NCBI GenBank assembly: GCA_019245575.1 | Contig: JAFARE010000040.1 | Coordinates: 1 to 64,000, forward strand | Length of the DNA stretch: 64,000 nucleotides | Origin: Candidatus Dormiibacterota bacterium | GTDB lineage: Bacteria; Chloroflexota; Dormibacteria; Aeolococcales; Aeolococcaceae | Reading direction: 5' to 3' | Shown here: in pieces, positions 7,046-35,560 of the stretch | How the letters are laid out: every line of letters starts with the position of its first letter | Position numbering within the stretch: position 1 is the first letter of the stretch | The notes under the pieces: model-generated | Told to the model about the DNA's origin: nothing | The model's input: only the letters and a program-made list of their open reading frames with translations | The model's database searches: none | Made by a program: the position numbers and the translations under genes

Positions 7046-7123
7046 TGGGGTGGCCAGTGGGATTCGAACCCACGACCTCCAGGGCCACAACCTGGCACTC
7101 TAACCAGCTGAGCTATGGCCACC
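7046..7123 (-). tRNA. tRNA-His (anticodon GTG), encoded G-1 and CCA
   Basis: Cloverleaf read on the minus strand: acceptor GTGGCCA/TGGCCAC, D-arm GCTCAGCTGGTTAGAGTGC, anticodon stem-loop CCAGG-TTGTGGC-CCTGG with anticodon GTG, and T-arm GTGGGTTCGAATCCCAC. The base before the acceptor stem is G (position -1) and the discriminator is C, the identity pair of tRNA-His. The 3' CCA is encoded. Confidence 0.95.
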
Positions 7124-7213: not shown

Positions 7214-7286
7214 GCCCCCGTAGCTCAGTGGATAGAGCATCCGCCTTCTAAGCGGTCGGTCGTGGGTTCGATTCCTACCGGGGGCG
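7214..7286 (+). tRNA. tRNA-Arg (anticodon TCT)
   Basis: Acceptor GCCCCCG/CGGGGGC, D-stem GCTC/GAGC, anticodon loop CTTCTAA with anticodon TCT, T-arm GTGGGTTCGATTCCTAC, discriminator G. The outermost anticodon-stem pair is a T-T mismatch. CCA is not encoded, unlike the neighbouring tRNA-His. It decodes AGA/AGG, rare codons in this GC-rich genome. Confidence 0.93.
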
Positions 7287-24434: not shown

Positions 24435-25238
24435 ATGGCAGCCGCCAAAGCAGTTCCCACCTCGGTCCCGGTGCTGGTGACCGGTGCGTCCAGCGGCATC
24501 GGCGAGGAGTTCGCCCGCAGGTTCGCCGAGCGCGGCCACGCGGTCACGATCGTGGCCCGGCGCGCCGAGCGCCTGGAGCAGCTGGCCGAGGACCTGCGCA
24601 GCCGCTACGGCGCGACCGTCGACGTGCTGGTGGCCGACCTGGAGACGGCGCGCGGCCGCAACAGCGTGGCCAAGCTGCTTCGCGAGCGCTCCCCCTGGGT
24701 GCTGGTGAACAACGCCGGCTACGGCACCCGCGGCCGCCTGGCCGACCTCGACGCCTCCCGAGAGCGCGCCGAGGTGCAGCTCAACGTGGTGAGCACGCAC
24801 GACCTCTCGCTCGCCGTGCTGCCCGGCCTGCTGCGGGCGGGAGCCGGCGGCATCATCAACGTCGCCAGCACGGCCGCCTTCCAGTCGCTGCCCTACATGG
24901 CGACCTATGCGGCCACCAAGGCCTTCATCCTCCATTTCACCGAGGCGCTCGCCGAGGAGCTGCGCGGCTCCGGAGCCCGGGCCATGGCCCTCTGCCCCGG
25001 TCCGGTGCGCACCGAATTCAGCGAGGTCGCCGGCGTGCAGGACTACATGGAGCTGGCCCGGCCGATGAGCATGAGCGCGGCCAAGTGCGTCTCCACCGCC
25101 CTGCGCGCCTTCGACCGCGGCACCGCCGTGTGCGTCCCCGGGCCGCTCAACTCCGCCGCCACCCTCGGCCCGCGCCTCGCGCCCCGCGTCGTCGTGCGGA
25201 AGGTGACGGGCCAGATCTTCCGTCCACGGTCAGGCTGA
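24435..25238 (+). CDS. Short-chain dehydrogenase/reductase
   Basis: 267-residue classical [22 protein letters not shown] (NAD(P)-binding TGxxxGxG), NNAGYG, the catalytic Ser in [11 protein letters not shown], and YAATK (YxxxK) with Tyr/Lys. CPGPVRTEF follows. Arg residues after the glycine motif (VARRAERL) favour NADPH. A near-perfect ribosome-binding site, AAGGAGGT at 24423-24430, lies 4 nt before ATG 24435. Divergent from nuoA. Closest by look to the DltE/YqjQ-type SDRs; the substrate is unknown. Confidence 0.9.
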
Positions 25239-25280: not shown

Positions 25281-25425
25281 AGAGGGGGTCGGCGGGCGGC
25301 GCGGAGAGACCGTCTCGGAGGCGAAACGGAACGGCTCGGATCGCAGGTTGAGCCGAGAGTCAGGGGCGGGGCGGCAGCGCCGCTCCGACCCCGTGGTCTC
25401 GGAGCACCGCGTGCCGACCCCCTCT
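25281..25425. other. Strongly structured convergent intergenic element (possible ncRNA or bidirectional terminator)
   Basis: A perfect 13-bp inverted repeat closes the element: AGAGGGGGTCGGC (25281-25293) and GCCGACCCCCTCT (25413-25425). Inside, further pairs extend the stem: GCGGCGC with GCACCGC (one mismatch), GAGACC with GGTCTC, and TCGGAG with CTCCGA. The tip holds a hairpin CGGCTC/GAGCCG. The whole 145 nt folds into one long rod. The right arm covers the first 2 nt of the stop codon of the convergent DUF3048 gene. It does not contain the cores of RNase P, tmRNA or SRP RNA. A 6S-like rod, a paired terminator and a small palindromic element are all possible. Confidence 0.45.
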
Positions 25426-26425
25426 AACCGCTGACTAGAGCGGCGGGCGAGCCGGTGGGCACCAGCTCGATCCAGAGCAACCCAGGAGCCATCGGCGCAG
25501 GGCGTCCGTTGGCGAGCTTGAACTGCGGGGGCCCGGCGTCAGGCTGCGTCCACGTGGCGTTGTACTCGTGGCCGTAGACGAAGACCTGGGCGGCGCCGCT
25601 GCCGGTGAGCTGGTGGTCGACGCCGTGGACGCCGTTCACGTCGACCACCTGGGCCGAGTACGTGACCTGGACCTGCTGCACGATCACGGTCGCGGCCTGC
25701 ACCGGCTGGCCCGACTGCGAGTCGACGAAGGGCCCGGTGTCTGGCTCGATGCGCGTCCAGGCGAAGCGGGTCTGGTCCCAGGACCAGGTGGGCTGCTCGA
25801 AGTTGGACACGGGCACGGTGAACGCCTGCGCCGCCGTTCCGCCGCTGGGCGCGGCGCTGATCACGGGAAAGGCATACGACACCGTCGGCGGGTGCACGCG
25901 AGTCAGCAGGTCGTGTAGGTGGACGCCGTCGGTGTAGAGGTTGTGCGGCGCGGGCCGGCTGTTCACCCGGAAGAGGTCGCCGCCCGCGCTGTCCTCGTCG
26001 AAGTGCGGCAGGTTCGACGCGTCGAGCAGGCCGTTGATGTACTCGGAGCCGCCGGAGTACATGAGCACGCCCTGGTAGAGCCGGAGCAGGGAGATCGTGG
26101 CCAGGCGGGCGCTGCGCACCGGCCCGACGGTCACCGCGGGAGGCACCGGGTAGATCGCGGAGAACCGGCTGATGCCGCCCTCGGCCACGTACTCGTAGAC
26201 GATCGTCGCCTGCTGCAGTCCGGACTGGGGCCGTCCCGCGTCCGAGTTCTCCACCTGCACGATCACCGGGGCCGGGGGTGGCGGGAGAGGCGTGGGCGAA
26301 GGGCTCGGAGTCGGGCGCGGCGAACTGGACGGCGGCGGCGTGCCCCCTCGGGCCGCCGGCGATCCGCAGGCTGCCGCGACCAGCGCGACCAGCCCGAGCA
26401 GCGCGGCGCGCCGTCCCCTCGTCAC
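25424..26425 (-). CDS. DUF3048 (YerB-like) lipoprotein
   Basis: 333 residues. Lipoprotein signal LLGLVALVAAAC with the lipid-attachment Cys at ~20, a Pro/Ser/Thr-rich linker, then a DUF3048 domain: VQVENSDAGRPQSGL, VYEYVAEGGISRFSAIY, VGPVRSAR, SGGSEYINGLL, and the C-terminal part with GLLWIELVP. YerB-type proteins are extracytoplasmic lipoproteins of unknown function, widespread in Gram-positives. Starts with a 4-nt overlap with the DUF488 gene, so the two are coupled. Its stop codon overlaps the structured element described at 25281-25425. Confidence 0.85.
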   Translation of the reverse strand: MTRGRRAALLGLVALVAAACGSPAARGGTPPPSSSPRPTPSPSPTPLPPPPAPVIVQVENSDAGRPQSGLQQATIVYEYVAEGGISRFSAIYPVPPAVTVGPVRSARLATISLLRLYQGVLMYSGGSEYINGLLDASNLPHFDEDSAGGDLFRVNSRPAPHNLYTDGVHLHDLLTRVHPPTVSYAFPVISAAPSGGTAAQAFTVPVSNFEQPTWSWDQTRFAWTRIEPDTGPFVDSQSGQPVQAATVIVQQVQVTYSAQVVDVNGVHGVDHQLTGSGAAQVFVYGHEYNATWTQPDAGPPQFKLANGRPAPMAPGLLWIELVPTGSPAALVSG

Positions 26426-35263: not shown

Positions 35264-35318
35264 ACGGCGCGGACGATGCCATCCAAGTCGTTGGCCCATA
35301 CTTCGGCGGACAACTGAA

Positions 35319-35471
35319 TAGCGCCACGGGTGACGGGAAGCCGGTGCAACACCGGCGCTGTCGCGCAACTGTGAGCGGGGAGCCCACGCCAACCGTGCCA
35401 CCTCGGAGTTCCGGGGGAAGGCGGCTGAAGGCGACGATCCGCAAGCCAGGAGACCGATCCGTGGGGCGCCA
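35319..35471 (+). promoter_or_regulatory. Cobalamin (B12) riboswitch
   Basis: All core parts are present in order: GGGAAGCCGGTG, CCGGCGCTGTCGCGCAACTG, TGAGCGGGGAGC, GTGCCACC, GGGGGAAGGC, GACGATCCGCAAGCC and the B12 box AGCCAGGAGACC (35444-35455). The P1 stem pairs GCGCCAC (35321-35327) with GTGG..GGCGC (35461-35469). The gap to the start codon at 35561 is ~90 nt and contains C- and G-rich stretches that could form the expression platform. High B12 should switch off the downstream five-gene operon. A weak promoter, TTGGCC-N17-CTGAAT, lies at 35291-35319. Confidence 0.95.
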
Positions 35472-35560
35472 ACTCCACCCCCGCGCGAGACGGGAGGTCG
35501 GCCTCATGCGGCGAGGACCCTCCGGCGAGGTGGATCGGCGAGCCGCATGGGAGCAGTGGG

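Follow-up and report, generated by a model that had tools for sequence, protein, structure and literature searches.

The hairpin at the SDR-DUF3048 junction

In the window, the whole 64,000-nucleotide stretch of DNA analyzed here, an SDR gene ending at 25238 and an oppositely oriented DUF3048 gene converge on a 145-nt element at positions 25281-25425. A preliminary description made from the letters alone had reported these convergent neighbors and a perfect 13-bp closing stem, and both stand: 25281-25293 is fully complementary to 25413-25425 over 13 bp, or over 14 bp with one G-T pair. The structured nature claimed there for the element is confirmed by folding, with a minimum free energy (MFE) of -99.4 kcal/mol on the plus strand and -91.8 kcal/mol on the minus strand (z-scores of -6.53 and -6.61, respectively), and none of 200 dinucleotide shuffles was as stable on either strand. 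The element was further said to span the gap between the genes, which is true of the right side, where from the fold and the gene coordinates the DUF3048 stop codon (25424-25426) shares 2 nt with the right arm, but not of the left, where 42 nt lie free beside the SDR gene. Relatives of the DUF3048 protein in other contigs were found at four distant MAG loci and were not used further.

On the plus strand, the closing stem P1 pairs a left arm at 25281-25294, whose copy-specific sequence is unlike the arms of other copies, with a right arm at 25412-25425. Within it, covariation defines P2, formed by GAGACC (25306-25311) and GGTCTC (25395-25400) and altered on both sides in seven of eight helix pairs, and P3, two helices with a 5' strand at 25313-25327 (TCTC, a 3-nt bulge GGA, GGC, a tandem GA, AAC) and a 3' strand at 25347-25358 (GTT, GA, GCC, GAGA). 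The P5 hairpin (25363-25392) carries a bulged A at 25388 and has 97.5% of its cells paired. The covariance model R1 matches 25289-25417 with 116.1 bits, the window copy itself being among the 14 sequences of that model. The nested complementary blocks seen in the preliminary description correspond to P1, P2 and P5, whereas the local hairpins of the MFE structure at about 25312-25352 were ruled out as the conserved fold, covariation favoring the longer P3 with its GGA bulge and tandem GA/GA. Neither the T-tract of an intrinsic terminator nor a sigma-70-like promoter was found at the window copy. Elsewhere in the window lie a cobalamin riboswitch (35311-35476, 94.7 bits) and two tRNA genes (7049-7122 and 7214-7286), one on each strand and separated by about 90 nt.

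A dispersed family with a conserved core and copy-specific arms

An initial BLAST search of the source genome (2.6 Mb, 89.6% complete) gave 12 places at E < 1e-5, the window included; weak places at C12:39684, C27, C36:341082, C13 and C30 were discarded as short or unconvincing, and C12:39642 is a marginal R1 match (E 0.005). Covariance models R1 and R2, the latter built from 54 sequences, alike identified 31 dispersed copies at E <= 0.01. Matches at this threshold occur in 20 of the 32 genomes of the taxonomic family (marginally in G007), and in a sample of 400 genomes from the phylum six match at E <= 1e-4, all of them within the family, with eight candidates scored per genome, a setting at which weak or distant copies could escape. 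The element measures about 110-170 bp across the family, and nearly all copies match the 129-position covariance model from one end to the other. In one copy (L037, G003:C309, 1399-1580) the P5 hairpin has been swapped for a longer, unrelated hairpin. At both gathering and permissive thresholds Rfam gave no match at the element; phages and plasmids gave none, nor did viral contigs in a weak test with a single exact string as pattern. A literature search at the level of titles and listings found no description of this repeat family.

Conservation across copies is centered on the core (about 25306-25400 in the window), which comprises P2, P3 and P5. The 3-nt bulge in P3 is GGA or GCA, and the tandem GA/GA is present in most source-genome copies. 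Of 22 copies folded, most have a P1 of at least 12 bp. Covariation in the helices, a feature expected of structured noncoding RNA, is present. In alignment A3 (65 rows, including three that are probably false: L091 and the second matches in L061 and L055), 32 of the 39 model pairs have changed on both sides; 91.8% of cells are paired, whereas shuffled versions reach 68.7% and slid ones no more than 49.3%, and 513 cells carry a change on both sides, as against 165 in shuffled versions, counts that lean toward structure because A3 was fitted to it. Several pairs, such as columns 41-81 (24 G-C, 20 A-U) and 109-189 (27 G-C, 26 A-U), are either G-C or A-U across dozens of sequences and never G-U. 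The checks for further copies and for covariation proposed in the preliminary description were both run and found many copies and many compensatory changes, so that, of the refutations it had named, neither a lack of other copies nor a lack of compensatory changes materialized.

Covariation of this strength, together with the RNA-like bulge and tandem GA motif, is what would be expected of a multicopy structured RNA, either a trans-acting sRNA or a cis-acting RNase III or stability signal, with stems selected for RNA folding. The types of mismatch speak on both sides of this explanation. Random mismatches would give G-U, A-C and other combinations at 1:1:4, and the two outer stems come near this ratio, with 21 G-U, 18 A-C and 44 other cells in P1, some of them possibly misaligned, and 8, 8 and 34 in P2; this lack of a wobble preference counts against selection for RNA folding. 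P5 has 27 G-U cells against one A-C, 25 of them at a single pair, and this GU-rich position favors an RNA; P3a has 11 G-U against four A-C, and P3b two against one. As a control, 10 predicted tRNAs from the same sequences, one of them a doubtful-looking prediction, contain six G-U and no A-C in 204 pairs (Fisher p 0.033). The excess of G-U in P5, weaker in P3a, suggests selection on the folding of one strand. The stems thus seem to be kept on both strands or by copying, while the core may in addition be read as a single strand.

Among 11 source-genome copies the closest pairs of cores are 85-94% identical, but in the same pairs identity over 40 arm positions is just 23-45%, close to that of all 55 pairs of the 11 copies (mean 0.35); therefore, similar cores bear unrelated, complementary arms. 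In genus g6, arms of the GTGGGGAGGGCATG type are alike between sites, indicating that arm turnover differs among genera. An example of paired change is the inner arm at purS-purQ, which reads GGGCATGTGC/GCACATGCCC in G019 and GGACGGGGAC/GTCCCCGTCC in G005, both sides having been altered together. The motif GAGG occurs 15 times in the arms as against 4.6 expected from a background that was not matched for composition.

Gene context, orientation and flanks

Copies are located preferentially just downstream of genes. Among 30 source-genome copies, 14 lie between convergent genes, six and five between tandem genes in the two orientations, four between divergent genes and one inside a gene. With genes called by a simple codon-usage script rather than a standard gene finder, 14 of 29 intergenic copies are convergent, whereas contig C36 has 46 convergent junctions out of 296 (p 3.6e-5). 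This enrichment would suit the structured RNA considered above, and also a bidirectional transcription terminator or a 3' end barrier for convergent genes, to which the great stability of the fold on both strands would also be suited. A terminator is hard to reconcile, however, with the missing T-tract of the window copy, with copies inside the operons atpA-atpG, sucC-sucD and purS-purQ and inside a LigD-like gene, and with a core conserved far beyond a terminator's needs, and we give this explanation very little credence.

Both G000 and G001 have a copy between atpA and atpG. The names atpA, atpG, sucC, sucD, purS, purQ and purC rest on recognition of the encoded proteins. Two copies, L049 in the source genome and L094 in G001 (each from position 1501 onward), lie in frame, in differing frames, in the linker between the two parts of a ligase-polymerase that is presumably LigD-like, judging by its domains.

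At two operon sites the core occurs in both orientations among related species, the g6 species compared being about 82-92% identical in sucD. At purS-purQ it has the orientation of the model in G014, G023 and G046 and is inverted in G019, G005 and G047, a pattern that needs at least one flip. At sucC-sucD, G046 has the core as it is in the model, and G019, G014, G047, G045 and G023 have it inverted. A sucD tree, whose deeper nodes are weakly supported, places G046 as the sister of G023 with a support of 1.0, and the flip at sucC-sucD is taken to be recent because these two are sisters. The copies at sucC-sucD in G046 (L117) and at purS-purQ in G023 (L105) have lost much of P3/P5 by deletion and have kept the arms.

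An orientation fixed with respect to transcription or to an own promoter, a trait of structured RNA genes, was not found. A core that flips between sister species at orthologous operon sites, tandem contexts in the source genome that split six to five, in-frame copies in the LigD-like gene of the source genome and of a second genus, the lack of an Rfam family and the window copy's lack of a promoter all argue against the structured RNA, which we regard as unlikely despite the covariation. Of the two identities suggested in the preliminary description, a small RNA and a palindromic mobile remnant, the former is weakened, as core orientation is arbitrary relative to transcription and flips at one site between sister species and the arms have no wobble preference; the latter is upheld by the dispersed copies, by like cores at unrelated loci and by sites that lack the element.

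Such empty sites are found at sucC-sucD, where stop and start codons overlap in G005, G000, G001, G003 and G009 and the genes nearly abut in G008, and at the SDR/DUF3048 pair, whose stop codons overlap in G016 and which is separated by a 72-nt gap in G021. Because the same convergent pair lacks the element in these two genomes, we regard the window copy as an insertion, on a comparison at family-level divergence. No target duplication or TA end was recognized by eye between filled and empty sites, the relatives being too diverged to define the ends.

The complementarity of many copies extends beyond the element. When the left flank was compared with the reverse complement of the right flank 15-100 nt outside the model, 17 of 27 source-genome copies (L070-L072 being left out) scored above the 99th percentile (16.0) of a background drawn from the 64-kb window, and the median score was 20 against a background mean of 9.6. 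Maximum control scores were 18.0 over 161 slid centers and 18.5 for swapped flanks, and at 100-300 nt outside the model only three of the 27 copies exceeded the 99th percentile. The other 10, the window copy included, have no flank complementarity above that percentile. The right flank of L048 looks like a decayed 3' end of the adjoining SDR-like gene, turned around; L053, L060 and L062 are among the cases listed with flanks of this kind. L085 (G002:C310, 1501-1615) has flanks that match in this way over some 156 nt (score 73), but its position close to a contig end makes an assembly artefact possible.

Similar cores between unrelated arms and palindromic flanks in the source genome could also be explained by a mobile core inserting into preexisting palindromes, the arms and flanks being target sequence. 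This explanation is contradicted at the empty sucC-sucD and SDR-DUF3048 sites, where the genes overlap or nearly abut (72 nt in G021) and are too close to accommodate a palindrome, and by the arm sequence that g6 copies have in common between sites, and we consider it very unlikely.

Proposed replication template switching in a family of palindromic repeats

A DNA palindrome is preferred over an RNA gene because the core flips at one site, the arms have no G-U preference and, in 17 of 27 copies, the flanks are complementary over about 100 nt. The element probably belongs to a new family of nonautonomous palindromic DNA repeats, in which template switching at replication would preserve the pairing and flip the core. 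The hairpin would cause the polymerase to switch template between the arms during replication, so that one arm would be rewritten from the other and the stem would drift in sequence without losing its complementarity; the same switching would sometimes invert the core that the arms enclose, and tracts of the flanks, including the 3' ends of genes, would be copied in inverted form onto the opposite side. Paired arm turnover, core inversion and palindromic flanks would all follow from template switching acting at the hairpin, which we infer here from static copies. Template switching between inverted repeats is described as having two products, arm homogenization and spacer inversion (PMC8604942), and a role in the origin and upkeep of hairpins has been proposed for it (PMC8794818). 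The element resembles such quasipalindromes and small hairpin inversions in both products, but in these accounts the process is described at ordinary inverted repeats and RNA genes (PMC8604942, PMC8794818), whereas in the present case a single dispersed, conserved family would be its target and it would apparently spread into flanking genes.

The family is further proposed to have spread through transposition in trans. Y1 transposase, reverse transcriptase and IS110 transposase families were rejected as candidate mobilizers, with no match in the 89.6% complete source genome. IS110 occurs in 16 of the 32 family genomes, both with and without copies, and Y1 (PF01797) was found in one of the 32, not the source genome, with five of 14 control genomes positive. 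The strand-specific features of the core, namely the GGA bulge, the tandem GA and one conserved G-T/G-U pair, may serve as a recognition signal for the mobilizing enzyme or be active in transcripts, and the core may have a role as DNA or as RNA.

As outlined for the bacterial MITE-like repeats Correia/NEMIS, ERIC, RUP and RPE (PMC2229807), those elements are likewise noncoding, 100-200 bp long with long stem-loops, mostly intergenic with some in-frame insertions, and without their own transposase. The present family has the same traits of a small, dispersed, noncoding repeat that is intergenic and sometimes in frame in genes. According to that account, however, MITE-like repeats mostly have shared terminal repeats, often with TA ends and target duplications, whereas arms in the source genome are copy-specific (PMC2229807); a terminal inverted repeat common to copies is absent there, and g6 arms are similar. 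Another difference is that the present core is found in either orientation at a single site. REP elements, or GTAG/CGTC-tagged palindromes, are also described as multicopy, located between convergent or tandem genes and in some repair genes, and having stem variants with paired changes (PMC3733652). They are 20-40 bp long with a terminal tag and frequent G-T pairs (PMC3733652), in contrast to the roughly 130 bp and absence of wobble preference in P1/P2 of the present elements, and the RAYT mobilization proposed for GTAG-type REPs (PMC3733652) contrasts with the absence of a Y1 transposase match from the source genome. No terminal GTAG/CGTC tag was seen by eye, and many copies have CGTC inside the core at the P2/P3 junction. 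We regard the family as a MITE/REP variant that bears unusually clear signs of self-correction at the DNA level.

Covariation is commonly taken as the strongest evidence that an RNA fold is functional, and here the paired changes look DNA-driven. More tentatively, the RNA-like covariation may be made mainly by DNA replication, the hairpin of each copy being a hot spot of template switching that continually rewrites its arms from the flanks, flips its core and palindromizes gene ends, although we hold this wider reading to be somewhat short of an even chance. If it is true, strong covariation by itself is no proof of RNA function, a caution for RNA-discovery pipelines that encounter palindromic repeats. 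Dozens of copies, among them orthologous sites with either orientation, along with empty sites, provide many replicates for testing the maintenance of hairpins by template switching, in a family whose flanking gene ends have apparently been pulled into palindromes.
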